Both the position numbers and the translations under genes were made by a program. The notes beneath the pieces are model-generated. The model was not told where the DNA came from. It did no database searches and worked only from the letters and a program-made list of their open reading frames with translations. 23,101 bases of DNA from a virus, in IMG/VR virus record IMGVR_UViG_3300044522_000130, positions 1-23,101 of that record, one strand, 5' to 3'. Shown here one piece after another: positions 3-20,011 of this stretch (positions within the stretch are counted from its first letter, which is position 1; every line of letters begins with the position of its first letter).

Positions 3-551
3 ATGGAAATAACAGAAAGAATAAAACAGATAATAAAGCAAGAAACAAATATAGATGTTTGTAAAAGCAGTAGGAAACATAATATAATTGAAGCAAGAGC
101 ATTATACTTTCATTCAATTAAACATTTTAAACCTAAAATGACATTACAAGAAATGGCTGATTCAGTAAATAAGAATCACGCTACTGTAATACATTCACTA
201 AACAACTATTCTATGTACGAAAAGTTTAACGATGAATTAAGATATTTAAAAAACATAATTATAAATCAAATGGAAGAAGAAAACGTTTTAAATACAGAAG
301 ATAACAATCAGTTAAGATTAGAACTTAAAAAAAGAACTTTAAAAATATCAGAACTGCAAATTAAATTAGAGGAAAGTAATTTAAGAATAAAACAAATGGA
401 AAAAGCAAGATACGAATACAAAATAATAGAACGCTTAACTAACCTTCTTAATGAAACAAAAGGAACAGAACATCAAGAAGTAATGATACTACGTTTAGAA
501 GCTATCTACGATATGAATATGAAAGTAATAGAACATAATAAAAACAAATAA
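3..551 (+). CDS. DnaA domain IV-like DNA-binding protein with C-terminal coiled coil
   Basis: The first 75 residues resemble the DnaA C-terminal DNA-binding domain (domain IV): an Ile-Glu-Ala-Arg helix near residues 28-32, a Met-Thr-Leu-Gln-Glu-Met helix near 46-51, and NHATVIHS at 58-65, which corresponds to the DnaA-box recognition signature usually read as DHTTVLHA. There is no AAA+ ATPase domain, so this is not a full initiator. Residues about 88-150 are charged and heptad-like, suggesting a coiled coil for dimerisation. The ATG overlaps a TAA at 1-3 (TAATG), so an upstream gene probably ends there. Stand-alone proteins of this kind occur in Bacteroidota phages. By inference it could bind DnaA-box-like sites in phage or host DNA to affect replication or transcription. 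The domain call is fairly secure; the role is not. Confidence 0.75.
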   Translation: MEITERIKQIIKQETNIDVCKSSRKHNIIEARALYFHSIKHFKPKMTLQEMADSVNKNHATVIHSLNNYSMYEKFNDELRYLKNIIINQMEEENVLNTEDNNQLRLELKKRTLKISELQIKLEESNLRIKQMEKARYEYKIIERLTNLLNETKGTEHQEVMILRLEAIYDMNMKVIEHNKNK

Positions 552-11630: not shown

Positions 11631-12530
11631 ATGAGAATAGTTGAATTAATAATAGACGAAACTGAAAAGTTAAACGGAATAGAAGCGGTATCAATAGTTG
11701 AATTTCCTGCAATAGAATCTAACTTTATTGCTTTGAGTGAACATTTAGAGCTTGCTAAAGTTGACGATGAAAAGAAAATTTTAATGGGTGCTGCATTAAT
11801 ACCAAATAAAAACATTTACCGTAAAAATGGCGATGATGAATATTATATATTCTTTTCAAATGATACAGTAAGAAAAGCAAGTGAATTATTCTTAATGAAT
11901 AGCAATCAAAACAATGCAACATTAGAACACGAAAAGAAACTAAAAGATTTAAGTGTAGTTGAATCTTGGATAGTTGAAGATACTGAAATGGATAAGTCTA
12001 AAAAGTATGGTTTAAATGCTCCTGTAGGTACTTGGATGGTATCTATGAAAGTTAATAATGATGCTATATGGAATGACTTTGTAAAGACCGGAAAGGTTAA
12101 AGGATTTTCAATCGAAGGATATTTTTCGGACAAATTAGAAATGAGTTTAAATTTAAATAAAAAAGAAATGGAAAAAAATGTTATGATTGAAAAGATTAAA
12201 TCTTTAATTGAAAAAAGTGAATTAAAGAATCAAAAAGTAGAATTAGCAACTATAACTTCAATAGTTAAAGAAAGAGAAAAAATTGCAGATGATTATTTAA
12301 AAGCACAAGGTATAGCAAGTAATGCAACAGGTCAATTAGATGCTATATTGAAAAACATAAAACTTAAAGCTACTTCAAATTTAAGTTCAATAGAAGAAGC
12401 TAAAAAACAAGTTAAAGATTTAGGAATCGAAAATCCAAAAGAATTAATTGACGCTGAAACAAGTGCAAAAAATTATATTAAAAGAACAGATGAATTTTTA
12501 AAGTTAGTAACTACACTTGGAAATTTTTAA
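11631..12530 (+). CDS. XkdF-like capsid maturation protease with scaffold-like C-terminus
   Basis: 299 residues. The first 170 resemble the XkdF family of putative phage serine proteases: an N-terminal strand pattern with VEFPAIES, His100 in the segment ATLEHEKKL, the VVESWIVED strand, the GLNAPVGTWMVSMKV segment, and Ser160 in GFSIEGYF. His and Ser are the expected catalytic pair by comparison with prohead proteases. From about residue 187 the protein is helical and contains KSELKNQKVELA at 195-206, a domain also found in the gene at 12789 and in the broken gene at 15419. Proteases fused to scaffold-like tails are known in HK97-type phages, so this may release or process scaffold during head maturation. 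It is preceded by an A/T-rich leader. Confidence 0.75.
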   Translation: MRIVELIIDETEKLNGIEAVSIVEFPAIESNFIALSEHLELAKVDDEKKILMGAALIPNKNIYRKNGDDEYYIFFSNDTVRKASELFLMNSNQNNATLEHEKKLKDLSVVESWIVEDTEMDKSKKYGLNAPVGTWMVSMKVNNDAIWNDFVKTGKVKGFSIEGYFSDKLEMSLNLNKKEMEKNVMIEKIKSLIEKSELKNQKVELATITSIVKEREKIADDYLKAQGIASNATGQLDAILKNIKLKATSNLSSIEEAKKQVKDLGIENPKELIDAETSAKNYIKRTDEFLKLVTTLGNF

Positions 12531-12788: not shown

Positions 12789-13175
12789 ATGACAACTGAA
12801 AAATTAGTAAACGAGGCTTTGTTTGGAAAAACAGAATTAGCAAGTTTAAAAGTAGAATTAGCTTTAACAGATGCTATTAAAAAATATACTGCTGGTTACA
12901 AAAAATATAATGATGAAGGTTTAGGTTTAACTCAAAAAGGACAAAGAATAAAAGCAGAATTAAATGAAATTATTTCTGCTATGTTAAAATGGAGAGAATT
13001 AGGAGATAGTATTGCTAATGATATGTTACCTGAATTTAAAAAAATAGAAAATGCTGCAAAAGAATTAGGTATTGATGTTAAAACTATTCCTGATTATAAA
13101 GACGCTAATGATGCTTTTGTAAAATATTCAATGTTTGCAAGTAAAATGGAAGCTGAAGCAAACAAATTAAAATAA
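12789..13175 (+). CDS. Scaffold-like helical protein, intact copy of the KTEL domain
   Basis: 128 residues, almost entirely helical and charged, with KTELASLKVELA at 14-25 and a second conserved-looking part, AKELGIDVKTIPDYKDAND, near residues 90-108. Both parts match the C-terminus of the protease at 11631 and the interrupted gene at 15419. It sits between the protease and the capsid gene, where scaffold genes usually lie. No catalytic motif is present. It may be a free scaffold or a capsid-associated internal protein. The homology among the three copies is visible by eye; the function is inferred from position. Confidence 0.6.
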   Translation: MTTEKLVNEALFGKTELASLKVELALTDAIKKYTAGYKKYNDEGLGLTQKGQRIKAELNEIISAMLKWRELGDSIANDMLPEFKKIENAAKELGIDVKTIPDYKDANDAFVKYSMFASKMEAEANKLK

Positions 13176-13193: not shown

Positions 13194-13739
13194 ATGAATG
13201 TAATTAATGAAATCAAAACTCTTTTGGGTATGGAAGTTAAACTTGCTCAAATGAAACTTAAAGATGGAGTTACTGTTATAGAAGCAGATGCTTTTGAAAT
13301 GGATAACAATGTTTTTATTGTAAACGGTGAGGAAAAAATTCCTGTACCTGTTGGAGAATACGAACTTGAAGATGGAATGATTTTAGTTGTAGCAGTAGAA
13401 GGTATTATTGCTGAAATTAAAGAACCTGTTGCAGAAGTTGAAGAAGCTCCTGAAGTAGAAGAAGAAGTTGAAGCACAAGCTGCTACACCTGCTACTCCTA
13501 AAAGAATTGTTGAATCAGTTTCTAAAGAAATGTTCTTTTCTGAAATTGAAAAACTACGTACTGAAATTGCTGAATTAAAATTAAGCAAAGAAGTTGTTAA
13601 AGAAGAATTAAGTTCTGATGTTGTTGTTGAACCATTAACACATTCACCTGAAGTTAAATCTGAATTAAAATTAAATAAAATATCAACTAATCGCCAAATG
13701 ACTACACAAGATATAGTTATGGCAAAACTTTTTAACTAA
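13194..13739 (+). CDS. Scaffold-like or capsid assembly protein
   Basis: 181 residues in three parts. A first helix contains LGMEVKLAQMKLKDG (about 11-25), weakly like the KTEL motif of its neighbours. A small beta domain follows (about 23-78) with GVTVIEADAFE, VFIVNGEEKIPVPVGEYELEDG and VEGIIAEIK. Then comes a Glu/Pro/Ala-rich linker (about 80-105) and a helical C-terminus (about 112-140) with a short conserved-looking end. Proteins of this design lie directly before the major capsid gene in Bacteroidota phages. An acidic linker and coiled end suit a scaffold. The beta domain could bind capsid or serve as a decoration fold. The 13-base spacing to the capsid gene fits co-expression. Confidence 0.6.
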   Translation: MNVINEIKTLLGMEVKLAQMKLKDGVTVIEADAFEMDNNVFIVNGEEKIPVPVGEYELEDGMILVVAVEGIIAEIKEPVAEVEEAPEVEEEVEAQAATPATPKRIVESVSKEMFFSEIEKLRTEIAELKLSKEVVKEELSSDVVVEPLTHSPEVKSELKLNKISTNRQMTTQDIVMAKLFN

Positions 13740-14790: not shown

Positions 14791-15333
14791 ATGCCTTGCG
14801 ATATATCATTAGGAAGAGCTGTACAATGTAAAGACAGTTTAGGAGGATTAAGAGCAGTTTACTTCATTAATTGGGGTGATGCTACAACAGTAACATATTC
14901 TGCAACTGCAGGACAAGAGGATGTTATCACTGCTTTAGGTGGTACTCCTATTGGTTACAAATATGAATTAAAAGGAACTTCAACTTTTGAGCAAACTGTA
15001 ACAAGTTCAAGAGACAATGGAACTACATTTGTTGACCAAAAATTATCTTTGGATATTAAAAAATTAACTATTGCAGACCATAAACAACTTAAACTTTTAG
15101 CTTATGGACGTCCACAAGTTATAGTTGAAGATAACAACGGTAATTTCTTTATGGCTGGTTTGACTAAAGGAATGGATTTAGTAACTGCAACAGTATCTAC
15201 AGGTGCTGCAATGGGTGATGCTTCATCTTATAAAATGGAATTTCAAGGAATGGAAAAATTACCTGCAAATTTCGTTACTGGACCATTAACTACAGGAATA
15301 TTAGCTTCTATTGTTGAAGGTACTGTAGCATAA
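14791..15333 (+). CDS. Probable major tail tube protein
   Basis: 180 residues, mostly predicted beta strands, beginning MPCDISLGRAVQCKDSLGG and with repeated strand-turn units such as YKYELKGTSTFEQTVTSSRD and LSLDIKKLT. Size, beta content and Gly/Thr richness fit a siphovirus tube protein. The pattern of an initial Cys-rich segment then a GG turn is like proteins annotated as tail tubes in Bacteroidota phages. It is the second monocistronic-looking gene in this region, with a strong terminator after it, as expected for a highly expressed virion component. It is separated from the rest of the tail module by more than 3 kb. An alternative would be a capsid decoration protein. Confidence 0.6.
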   Translation: MPCDISLGRAVQCKDSLGGLRAVYFINWGDATTVTYSATAGQEDVITALGGTPIGYKYELKGTSTFEQTVTSSRDNGTTFVDQKLSLDIKKLTIADHKQLKLLAYGRPQVIVEDNNGNFFMAGLTKGMDLVTATVSTGAAMGDASSYKMEFQGMEKLPANFVTGPLTTGILASIVEGTVA

Positions 15334-15355
15334 CATTTTGTTTGTTTGTTTTTTT

Positions 15356-15390
15356 AAAGGGGTTTATGGTAAAAGTAAATCCCTTTTTTT
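15356..15390 (+). terminator. Intrinsic terminator after tail tube gene
   Basis: An 11-bp stem (15356-15366 with 15376-15386, one G-U pair) around a nine-base loop, then seven T (15384-15390). The stem design (AAGGGG in the left arm, TCCCTT in the right) is nearly the same as in the terminator after the capsid gene, suggesting duplication or a shared phage terminator type. Confidence 0.85.
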
Positions 15391-15418
15391 AAACAATAAC
15401 TTTTAAAAATATAAAAAA

Positions 15419-15751
15419 ATGAGTGAATTAAAAAGAGTAATGGATACATTATTCAAAACAGAATTAAATTCTCAAAGAGTAGAGTTAGGATTAATTCAAG
15501 ATTTAGAAAAATAATATTCTAAAATTGTAAATTCAACAAAAGAAATAGTTTCTGAAGGAACAAGAATAGGTAAAGAAATTTTTAATTTTAGAGATACTTA
15601 CGCTGTAGATGCAAATAAATTTATTGACTTACAATCTAAATATATAAGTATGGCAAAAGAATTAGGAGTTGATGTAGATGCTAAATTTCAAAAAGCATTA
15701 AATGATTTAAGCGAAGCAAAAAATACTTTTAAATCTTTAGTTGGAAGATAA
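15419..15751 (+). pseudogene. KTEL-domain scaffold-like gene with in-frame TAA
   Basis: Reading from the ATG at 15419 gives 31 residues, then TAA at 15512-15514, then 78 more codons in the same frame to a TAA at 15749-15751. The pieces together match the intact protein at 12789: KTELNSQRVELG at 13-24 against KTELASLKVELA, and AKELGVDVDAKF against AKELGIDVKTIP. The internal stop aligns with a Lys or Tyr position, and one base change (AAA or TAT/TAC to TAA) would explain it. After the stop, the first in-frame ATG comes far downstream. Both a leader like that of neighbouring genes and a terminator right after it are kept. Options are a recent nonsense mutation, read-through of a leaky stop, or a sequencing error. 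Other genes here use all three stops normally, so recoding of TAA is unlikely. Confidence 0.7.
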
Positions 15752-15755
15752 AATT

Positions 15756-15782
15756 AAAGCACCTTAATTGGTGCTTTTTTTT
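15756..15782 (+). terminator. Intrinsic terminator between convergent transcripts
   Basis: An 8-bp stem, AAAGCACC (15756-15763) with GGTGCTTT (15770-15777), loop TTAATT, then eight T on the plus strand (15775-15782). On the minus strand the same hairpin is followed by an A/T-rich stretch with four T, so it may act weakly in both directions between the plus-strand head genes and the minus-strand block. Confidence 0.8.
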
Positions 15783-16047
15783 ATATATTTTTTATTTCTT
15801 TTTTTACTTCTTTCCAATATATATTTACATCACTTTTAAAACTTTCATTTAATTTTCTTTTTTCCATAAGAGTTTTAATAATTTTTATTAATTGAGGTAC
15901 AATAACATTTTCTTGTTTTATAATTTCATCAACTGCTATTAATGCACATTGTTTATGCCTTTCGGTATTGATGTTTATATAACCAAACTCATCAGTTGCT
16001 AATTTTATCTTATCAACTAACTCTCTTGCTTTTTCTTTTGGTGTCAT
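15781..16047 (-). CDS. MTPKEKA-family small protein, copy 3
   Basis: 88 residues, third of three tandem paralogues. It starts MTPKEKARELVDKIKLATD, then has a HKQCALIAVDEIIKQ segment (about residues 31-45), an insertion absent from the other copies, and the conserved end YWKEVKKEIKNI. The Cys-Ala-Leu-Ile-Ala-Val-Asp-Glu-Ile core and the terminal W-x-E-V-K-x-E-I are shared with both sisters. The start overlaps the stop of the middle copy by four bases (ATGA). All-helical, charged; similar small proteins occur in Bacteroidota phages with no assigned role. The gene runs into the convergent terminator. Confidence 0.7.
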   Translation of the reverse strand: MTPKEKARELVDKIKLATDEFGYININTERHKQCALIAVDEIIKQENVIVPQLIKIIKTLMEKRKLNESFKSDVNIYWKEVKKEIKNI

Positions 16048-16050
16048 AAT
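16027..16050 (-). repeat. 24-base repeat over a start codon, copy 3
   Basis: The same 24 bases occur at 16221-16244 and 16445-16468. Each covers the first seven codons (MTPKEKA) and the three bases before the ATG. Confidence 0.9.
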
Positions 16051-16241
16051 AACTCTATTTCTTCTTTAACTTCTTGCCAAAACCAATCCATTCCTACTCT
16101 ACATTCAGCTATAATCTCATCAACTGATGCTAATGCACATAATTTTATTATATGATTCTTTTGATAATATCCCTCTATTTCATCAAATAATATGTTACTA
16201 AATGAGCTTCTTAAATCTTCTGCTTTTTCTTTTGGTGTCAT
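16044..16241 (-). CDS. MTPKEKA-family small protein, copy 2
   Basis: 65 residues, middle member of the tandem set. It has the same beginning (MTPKEKAEDL), the core IIKLCALASVDEIIAE, and the end WFWQEVKEEIELL. It is the shortest and most diverged: the core reads CALASVDE instead of CALIAVDE. The start overlaps the stop of copy 1 and the stop overlaps the start of copy 3, so all three are translated from one message. Helical, acidic; unknown function. Confidence 0.7.
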   Translation of the reverse strand: MTPKEKAEDLRSSFSNILFDEIEGYYQKNHIIKLCALASVDEIIAECRVGMDWFWQEVKEEIELL

Positions 16242-16244
16242 AAT
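16221..16244 (-). repeat. 24-base repeat over a start codon, copy 2
   Basis: Exact copy of 16027-16050 and 16445-16468, marking the junction of copies 1 and 2. Confidence 0.9.
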
Positions 16245-16465
16245 TTTTCTATTTCTTGTTTAACTTCTCTCAAATAATTAGCTAAATGATAATCTTGTGT
16301 CCATCTTAAATATTCTATAAACTCATCAACTGCTATTAATGCACATTCTTTGGCATCTTCATTATTCATACGCATATCACAAGTTCCTTCTATTGAATCA
16401 ACAAAACTAATACTTACATCTCTATATTTTTCAATTAACTCTATTGCTTTTTCTTTTGGTGTCAT
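16238..16465 (-). CDS. MTPKEKA-family small protein, copy 1
   Basis: 75 residues, first gene of the only minus-strand operon here. MTPKEKAIELIEKYRDVSI, then a variable acidic middle, the core AKECALIAVDEFIEYL (about 38-53), and the end YLREVKQEIEKL. Three copies with the same ends and a variable middle suggest duplication followed by divergence. The promoter at 16476-16506 is so close that the message would start within a few bases of the ATG. The start is secure because the first seven residues are identical in all copies. Opposite strand, own promoter and repeat structure mark it as an accessory (moron-like) cassette between head genes and portal. Confidence 0.7.
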   Translation of the reverse strand: MTPKEKAIELIEKYRDVSISFVDSIEGTCDMRMNNEDAKECALIAVDEFIEYLRWTQDYHLANYLREVKQEIEKL

Positions 16466-16468
16466 AAT
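16445..16468 (-). repeat. 24-base repeat over a start codon, copy 1
   Basis: Exact copy of 16221-16244 and 16027-16050; here it also lies between the promoter and the first codons of the operon. Confidence 0.9.
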
Positions 16469-16475
16469 TTTTTTT

Positions 16476-16506
16476 CAAATATATAAAACTTTATAATACA
16501 AAACAA
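16476..16506 (-). promoter_or_regulatory. Bacteroidota-type promoter for the minus-strand operon
   Basis: On the minus strand, TTG (16504-16506), a 20-base spacer, and TATATTTG (16476-16483) match the TTG and TAnnTTTG consensus at normal spacing. This is the best promoter in the window. The -7 box ends only 10 bases before the A of the ATG at 16465, so the 5' leader would be very short or absent. Confidence 0.75.
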
Positions 16507-16521
16507 TTTTATGTTTAAATT

Positions 16522-16538
16522 ATTATTATAAAAAAATA
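16522..16538 (+). repeat. 17-base A/T leader shared with 3375-3391
   Basis: Matches 3375-3391 exactly and ends two bases before the ATG at 16541. Both follow a break between transcription units (terminator or strand switch). See the entry at 3375. Confidence 0.4.
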
Positions 16539-16540
16539 TT

Positions 16541-16870
16541 ATGATAATTTTAAAAGAACAAAATACTGCACAAACTTTTAGCTTTATTCCACGTGAATTA
16601 AAAGCTACTACTATTGTTTTAAGAAATGAAAGTACAGGAAGTGAAACAACTATTGCTGCTGATTTCTTTTTATCAGATTATTATTTAACAACAACATCTG
16701 TTTTTAATTTAAAAGAAAATACATTTTACAATCTTTCAATTAAGAACAATAATGAAATAGTTTATAAAGACAAAGTTTTTTGTACAAATCAAGAAACAAG
16801 TACATATACAGTTAATCAAAATCAATACGTAGCAAACACTACAAACAACGAATTTGTAATTTATGAGTAA
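16541..16870 (+). CDS. Hypothetical small beta protein before the portal
   Basis: 109 residues, predicted mainly beta: strands at FSFIPRE, TIVLRNES, a LKENTFYNLSIKNNNEIVYKDKVFC segment, and a closing TNNEFVIYE. No catalytic motif. The ending resembles small structural proteins found next to portal genes in Bacteroidota phages as I recall them. It overlaps the portal start by eight bases, so the two are co-translated. A minor virion or connector-associated part is possible. Confidence 0.55.
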   Translation: MIILKEQNTAQTFSFIPRELKATTIVLRNESTGSETTIAADFFLSDYYLTTTSVFNLKENTFYNLSIKNNNEIVYKDKVFCTNQETSTYTVNQNQYVANTTNNEFVIYE

Positions 16871-19676: not shown

Positions 19677-20011
19677 TGGCTTTAGATTTTACACATATAA
19701 AAGGAGATACATTTGAATTGGTAAACTTTCAAATGCTTGTTAATTCAGTTGCTTTAAATTTAACAGGTTGTACATTAAGAATGCAATTAAGAAAAGAATA
19801 TGGAGGAGTAATATTTCTTTCATTAACTTCTGTTGCAAGTGCTGGAATAACTATTACAAATGCTGCCACAGGTTCATTTAGAATTAATAGACAAATAATA
19901 AATTTAGATGCTTATAACTATATTTATGACATTGAATTAATAAAAACAGATGGTACTGTTAAAACTTATATAAGTGGAAACTTTTCAATAACTAATGACG
20001 TAACACGATAA
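19676..20011 (+). CDS. BppU N-terminal-like baseplate/fibre-attachment protein
   Basis: 111 residues, all beta. It has the pattern DFTHIKGDTFELVNFQ, then LNLTGCTLRMQLRKE, a GITITNAATGSFRIN turn, and the ending YIYDIELIKTDG plus SGNFSITNDVTR. This series (I-K-G-D-T, L-T-G-x3-R-M-Q-L, Y-D-I-E-L, D-G-x-V-K-T-Y-I-x-G-x-F) is typical of the BppU N-terminal domain, which holds receptor-binding proteins onto the baseplate of lactococcal phages. It is directly followed by the tail fibre gene (TAATG-type one-base overlap), so the two probably form one appendage. Confidence 0.7.
   Translation: MALDFTHIKGDTFELVNFQMLVNSVALNLTGCTLRMQLRKEYGGVIFLSLTSVASAGITITNAATGSFRINRQIINLDAYNYIYDIELIKTDGTVKTYISGNFSITNDVTR

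Follow-up and report, generated by a model that had tools for sequence, protein, structure and literature searches.

Two variable segments of a small phage protein family, V1 and V2, recombine independently of each other and behave as exchangeable segments. The family was studied starting from the window, i.e. the whole stretch of 23,101 bases that was analyzed, a linear IMG/VR virus record that encodes terminase, portal, and tape-measure proteins. The window phage is a virus of aquatic bacteria, and its portal is 32% identical to the portal of the Nonlabens phages P12024S/L. We give an about even chance to the explanation that the family members are small modular binders, most likely for counter-defence or host takeover, and that homologous recombination at conserved blocks exchanges the two segments that determine their specificity; the exchange was observed, and the kind of target is inferred.

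The cassette of the window and its insertion site

The first-pass annotation had described an array of three minus-strand genes with ATGA overlaps, a repeat at each start, and a conserved core, and the ORF and repeat analyses confirmed this description (Table 1). The overlaps join c1 to c2 and c2 to c3, head to tail. The genes had also been called the only minus-strand genes, and indeed no other credible minus-strand gene was seen in the window. The 24-nt string TGCTTTTTCTTTTGGTGTCATAAT occurs with exactly the same letters at 16027, 16221, and 16445. The repeat finder lengthened this start repeat to 57 nt (88% between the starts of c3 and c2), because it extends from a gene's C-terminal block into the start of its successor. 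A second direct repeat of 37 nt covers the core of all three genes (15918, 16109, and 16315). The core had been noted as a protein feature only and written as CAL-x-VDE; its true form is CAL-x-x-VDE (CALIAVDE, CALASVDE).

Table 1. Features of the cassette and its surroundings in the window
Feature	Position	Strand	Description and basis
Accessory insertion site	15334..16540		between the genes 14791-15333 and 16541-16870; most relatives have an empty site of about 105 nt
Terminator-like hairpin, bidirectional	15756..15777		between cassette and plus-strand gene; scan 2 found vs 0.4 expected; sequence only
c3	15781..16047	-	cassette gene 3, 88 aa, long V2; ORF list, PHROG match, AlphaFold2 pLDDT 90.6
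Core repeat of c3	15918..15954	-	repeat finder, family D2
24-nt repeat, c3 start	16027..16050	-	repeat search
c2	16044..16241	-	cassette gene 2, 65 aa; ORF list, PHROG match
Core repeat of c2	16109..16145	-	repeat finder, family D2
24-nt repeat, c2 start	16221..16244	-	junction of c1 C block and c2 N block; repeat search
c1	16238..16465	-	cassette gene 1, 75 aa; ORF list, PHROG match, AlphaFold2 pLDDT 90.1
Core repeat of c1	16315..16351	-	CALIAVDE block; repeat finder, family D2
24-nt repeat, c1 start	16445..16468	-	N block; repeat search
Promoter-like TTG-N20-TATATTTG	16476..16506	-	10 nt ahead of c1 start; sequence only

The promoter-like motif ahead of c1 fits the Bacteroidetes -33/-7 consensus. 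A sigma-70 scan stayed at chance level (11 found versus 11.5 expected), and scanning the window for Rfam families and tRNAs gave no matches. As a family-wide promoter motif, TAnnTTTG was considered and rejected. It was present in 27 of 266 upstream regions versus 7.3 in shuffles, but many of these regions belong to related contigs, and therefore only the window's own motif was used.

The insertion site was surveyed in the window and in 67 relatives that contain the whole gap, and the gap was at most 200 nt long in 61 of these 68 loci. In one relative, the portal of which is 99% identical to that of the window (L170), it is empty and 104 nt long. As the gap is empty in most comparable loci, it is a moron-like accessory site. 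The earlier proposal of a moron-like accessory cassette is thus borne out by the survey, and by sequence the cassette has a promoter-like motif and a convergent terminator-like hairpin. Phage morons, or accessory cassettes, are an established concept. The window's cassette resembles them as a sporadic insert between late genes, on the opposite strand and with its own putative signals. In most other phages, in contrast, the family gene lies in a same-strand, probably early, operon: about 92% of the family genes have the same strand as their neighbours, and as far as these are annotated, DnaA-like and primase genes are often nearby. A gene with the DnaA C-terminal helix-turn-helix domain is also found at the very start of the window (3-551, plus strand), and because such a gene often adjoins family genes in relatives, the phage may carry more copies past the contig end.

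All seven filled sites contain a plus-strand gene starting with MSELK together with small minus-strand ORFs. Family members were found in the window (three), in L176 (one), and, as a distant match, in L212 (hhalign E 2.9e-5); the filled sites of L227, L204, L214, and L215 carry other small genes instead. The plus-strand gene of the window (15419-15751), which begins MSELKRVMDTLFKTEL, is interrupted after 31 codons by an in-frame TAA at 15512-15514. The versions of L176, L227, L212, L204, and L214 are intact; they have about 25 first residues in common, and their bodies are largely different. Thus, this gene, too, combines a conserved start with a swapped rest. An LFKTELxxQKVELA-like motif recurs on the plus strand of the capsid region, at 11631-12530, 12789-13175, 13194-13739, and from 15419 on. 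One gene with this motif encodes a putative XkdF-like protease, and the motif might serve as a tag for targeting to the capsid or scaffold.

Family membership, predicted structure, and arrays

The proteins c1, c2, and c3 belong to PHROG 21441 only, the function of which is given as unknown in the library. The HMM matches had E-values of 3.5e-11, 3.2e-7, and 3.6e-13, respectively, and ran nearly end to end (profile positions 1-74 or 1-75 of 75). Searches of Pfam, NCBIfam, and PDB sequences with the window copies yielded nothing convincing. A Pfam match of c3 to glutamate-cysteine ligase (E 0.0017) was under the curated cut-off and was judged to be due to chance. For 126 members, Pfam gave no consistent match and PADLOC no known defence-system family; 14 PADLOC families matched at most 2 of the 126 members each, with a best E-value of 0.0011. 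The family number and the conserved strings were absent from the open-licence paper texts that were searched.

The family set comprised 367 sequences from scans of viral contigs, a pattern-limited scan of bacterial genomes, and phage records, from which 432 members (344 distinct) were obtained after removal of two fragments from 434 matches. Most members stem from metagenomic IMG/VR contigs. At least 528 relatives were confirmed in one scan of viral contigs, and the family is therefore common among them. It is virus-borne and rare in bacteria: it occurred in 2 of 395 bacterial genomes of the class to which a Flavobacterium MAG belongs, the pattern-limited scan found six loci among 84,980 bacterial genomes, and none of 72,556 plasmids yielded a family member. 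Isolated phages with a family gene are P12024L, P12024S, and Pseudanabaena phage Pan5, and the record of Rhodobacteraceae phage LS06-2018-MD05 gave a weak match. P12024L_31 and P12024S_29 are clear members, present in a single copy in the early region next to a helicase gene and annotated as hypothetical proteins. In a search for an origin of the modules in other proteins, only 4 of 51,082 ORFs outside the family had a match at E < 1e-3, and two of these are pieces of a broken family gene.

The members have a length of 55-95 aa, and their alignment shows an N block (MTPKEKAxELvdKF), V1, a core (AKQCALIAVDEI), V2, and a C block (YWxEVKqEIEKL). The blocks are K/E-rich and charged, and the median length of both V1 and V2 is 16 aa. 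AlphaFold2 models were calculated for c1 (126 sequences, pLDDT as in Table 1) and c3 (103 sequences). The c1 model has helices at residues 3-15, 35-56, and 59-74 and, with lower certainty, a beta hairpin in V1, and the c3 model has helices at residues 3-20, 28-63, and 74-87. Both models, which have high confidence values, contain three helices and differ in the shapes of V1 and V2. The predicted three-helix scaffold is thus constant, and V1 and V2 lie at inter-helix connections that are predicted to differ between copies. Foldseek searches of the PDB with c1 and c3 gave no match at E 0.001 or better, and the BFVD matches were unnamed phage proteins of P12024L and Cellulophaga phage phi18:3. 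YqeY proteins were the best fold kin according to VIA-align (Z 7.3, 6.9, and 6.2), but they were not accepted as relatives, as the similarity may reflect a common helical arrangement alone.

The conservation of the blocks was also analyzed at the DNA level. Use of the same codon was higher than expected at most block positions, e.g. 0.90 versus 0.30 at the threonine after the start. However, in 14 control families it was 0.93 to 1.53 times the expectation overall and up to 1.93 times in conserved stretches, and because an excess is thus found in some controls too, DNA-level conservation of the blocks is suggestive only.

Related arrays show that the organization of the window's cassette is not a chance arrangement: in addition to the PHROG matches of all three genes, 96 of 105 inter-copy junctions are an exact 4-nt overlap. 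Of 327 arrays, 253 have one copy, 50 two, 17 three, and 7 four, so that 74 are multi-copy. The 56 distinct multi-copy arrays yielded 100 within-array pairs, none of which shared both variable segments; 3 shared one and 97 neither. Copies within an array share almost no segments and thus seem to have been acquired, not duplicated. Each array links different variants by the same 4-nt overlap, and its copies are not recent duplicates. Therefore, homologous unequal crossing-over inside the array, which had been considered easy because of the start repeats, was not supported as the main process. The array is real, but the interest lies in the shuffling of two segments, and the repeats matter as intragenic exchange points between phages, not for within-array crossing-over.

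Independent exchange of V1 and V2

The pairing of V1 and V2 was analyzed with 318 members and 50,403 pairs; 26 of the 344 distinct proteins, which have a very short V1 or V2, were left out. V1 was at least 0.7 identical in 253 pairs, in 153 of which the identity of V2 was below 0.35. V2 was at least 0.7 identical in 253 pairs as well, and V1 was below 0.35 in 173 of these. Both segments matched in 61 pairs. Clustering at 0.65 resulted in 220 V1 and 232 V2 clusters in 279 combinations. Among the clusters with several members, 36 of 42 V1 clusters paired with at least two V2 clusters, and 25 of 36 V2 clusters paired with at least two V1 clusters. When the same kind of test was applied to 30 neighbour families as a control, the value was 6.7% (1041 of 15,594 close segments). 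V1 was never similar to V2 (0 of 79,222 cross pairs at 0.6). The window itself contains examples: c1 has its V1 in common with L001 and a different V2, and c3 has its V2 in common with L076 and a different V1. In a blastn comparison of L001 and the window, the matches were limited to the family genes and their repeats.

The position of the crossovers was deduced from the DNA identity along the core. In V1-sharing pairs, the identities of the four core quarters were 0.853, 0.829, and 0.837, followed by a drop to 0.657. In V2-sharing pairs they rose from 0.547 to 0.698, 0.848, and 0.885, and in pairs with neither segment in common they were flat (0.67-0.71). As the identity step lies inside the core and on the expected side, the crossovers fall in the core. 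A Chao1 estimate, obtained with a biased sample, predicts about 900 or more V1 types and likewise V2 types. A prior report of a modular V1/V2 exchange was not found in the open-licence literature searched, which is no proof of absence. The most widely shared module is V2 cluster 0 (27 proteins, e.g. in L017, L002, and L045), which has the pattern EALxxHxWQNR and is combined with 14 V1 clusters. One family gene (L317:2081-2787) is apparently split by about 360 extra bases within V1, which gave no Rfam intron match above chance.

Within pairs of related modules, pN/pS was 0.13 for V1 and 0.23 for V2, values that are biased downwards because the pairs were chosen by protein identity. In pairs with a pS of at least 0.3, the median pN varied with the identity cut-off, within 0.066-0.097 in V1 and 0.084-0.255 in V2. 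The identity histogram is bimodal, and the trough between related and unrelated modules is deeper for V1 than for V2. Module types thus look discrete, conserved, and replaced rather than drifting, and V2 seems to drift more. Purifying selection within modules would be compatible with a conserved non-immune function as well.

Replacement was also found between nearly identical phages. P12024L and P12024S, for both of which Persicivirga sp. IMCC12024 is listed as host, are 97-99% identical around the family gene. The gene is identical in both phages over 30 nt at its start and about 40 nt at its end, and the interior is replaced. The P12024S genome contains five stretches without an 85% match in P12024L, one of which is the interior of the family gene (19703-19830). 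For metagenomic contigs, 40 flank lineages were defined, in which both flanks are at least 85% identical over 200 bases. Family gene content differed in 21 and did not differ in 19 of them; some loci derive from one contig with two ids, and this raises the number of lineages that show no variation. In overlapping categories, V1 alone was replaced in 3 lineages, V2 alone in 6, and both in 9. Copy number differed in 4 of the 40 and, together with the count of copies in the 327 arrays, this supports the earlier expectation that it may vary among relatives. At a flank identity of 95%, 6 of 30 lineages were variable. When one set of criteria was applied to both, a pair with less than 0.7 identity was present in 10 of 29 groups of single-copy family members versus 3 of 193 groups of other ORFs of 55-95 aa on the same contigs (Fisher p = 7e-8). 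At less than 0.5 identity the contrast was weak (2 of 29 versus 2 of 193, p = 0.08), which is expected because only parts of the gene are replaced.

Possible functions of the exchanged segments

A binder function is inferred because a constant fold with replaceable connections, non-redundant copies, and replacement between sister phages occur together. We hypothesize that each gene encodes a three-helix scaffold in which V1 connects helices 1 and 2, and V2 connects helices 2 and 3. The three conserved blocks would not only form the scaffold of the fold but also provide short stretches of DNA homology. Recombination there, between phages that infect the same cell, would replace V1, V2, or both, and whole copies would be gained or lost through the ATGA-joined ends. 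Annealing recombinases of the phages probably assist the exchange; both P12024S and P12024L encode ERF and YqaJ proteins, and phage single-strand annealing proteins are reported to be capable of exchange at short blocks (PMC3945230, PMC8093625). V1 and V2 would be binding surfaces for variable host molecules, of which defence or takeover targets are the likeliest, and an arms race would keep the swapping going. The conserved surface may have a common partner. In the window, the three non-redundant copies would form a small moron cassette with its own promoter-like motif and terminator-like hairpin.

Alternatively, host sensors might recognize the protein, so that variable segments are replaced for escape while the scaffold performs an unrelated housekeeping task early in infection. 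The replacement between sister phages on one host strain and the typical place among early genes next to DnaA-like and primase genes would fit this explanation. However, escape would favour point changes too, and amino-acid changes are rare within a module type despite synonymous differences. Several different copies per genome and the absence from close relatives also argue against housekeeping, and we regard an immune-evasion role as unlikely.

Slightly less probable is a role in superinfection exclusion or as a self/non-self marker, in which V1 and V2 would determine the specificity type, so that co-infecting relatives are excluded. The moron-like setting of the window's cassette, on the opposite strand and with a promoter-like motif of its own, and the coexistence of many types in near-identical phages speak for such a role, but the rarity of the family in bacterial genomes and the prevalence of same-strand early operons, which are not prophage-expressed positions, speak against it.

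The conserved-variable-conserved-variable-conserved layout with two exchangeable segments and the K/E-rich blocks would also be compatible with a regulatory or nucleic-acid-binding protein, the segments of which set DNA or RNA specificity as in a miniature analogue of HsdS, the specificity subunit of Type I RM systems. In HsdS, too, two variable specificity segments lie between conserved regions, and recombination there exchanges them. Duplicated distinct hsdS genes have been reported (PMC3077401, PMC7394358), and HsdS domains are reported to move between positions (PMC3077401). The segments of the family, in contrast, hold their position, and the phage-borne proteins are very short. HsdS models did not match the window copies (Pfam, NCBIfam) and were not among the matches listed for the 126 members (Pfam, PADLOC), a DNA-binding family match was not found, and no hsdM/hsdR gene or methylase partner adjoins the window's cassette. 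By analogy, the protein may work like a miniature HsdS-style modular recognition protein, but nucleic acid as the target is rather improbable. Two other known variation systems do not seem to fit the family: the modules vary in length and over their entire sequence, which makes the target of a diversity-generating retroelement seem unlikely, and the three window copies and the repeats over them are in direct orientation, unlike an invertible shufflon.

The sporadic presence at the window's site might also indicate neutral accessory DNA, i.e. a gene that is dispensable and lies in a recombination hot spot. The pN/pS values of related V1 and V2 modules, which the choice of pairs biases downwards, are well below 1, frames are open, blocks are constant, and ordinary small ORFs on the same contigs seldom vary, all of which makes neutrality a little more improbable still. 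Assembly chimaeras, in which assemblers join halves of different genes at short conserved blocks, would be conceivable for IMG/VR contigs and blocks of 24-57 nt common to many genes, but this very improbable explanation is largely refuted by the complete isolate genomes of P12024S and P12024L with the same kind of replacement, by the recurrence of the same combinations across contigs (e.g. L254, L258, L259, and L260), and by frames that are open through all joins.

Returning to the modular binder, we tentatively propose, with less confidence than for the binder as such, that phage populations hold an open combinatorial repertoire of two-segment binders of about 70 residues, with one to four non-redundant variants per phage, segments exchanged at built-in homology blocks, and variable host defence or takeover targets. 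If this is true, a widespread family of unknown function constitutes a natural library of small binders with two segments each and a virus-side counterpart of shuffled recognition proteins. The swaps would mark where phages and bacteria conflict, and the conserved blocks would account for the recombination of phages within 200-base genes. The role is directly testable with the sister phages, whose differences lie mainly in a few stretches that include the interior of the family gene. A second intragenic replacement between P12024S and P12024L affects 107 nt of a DUF3310 gene (L378:13440-13546).
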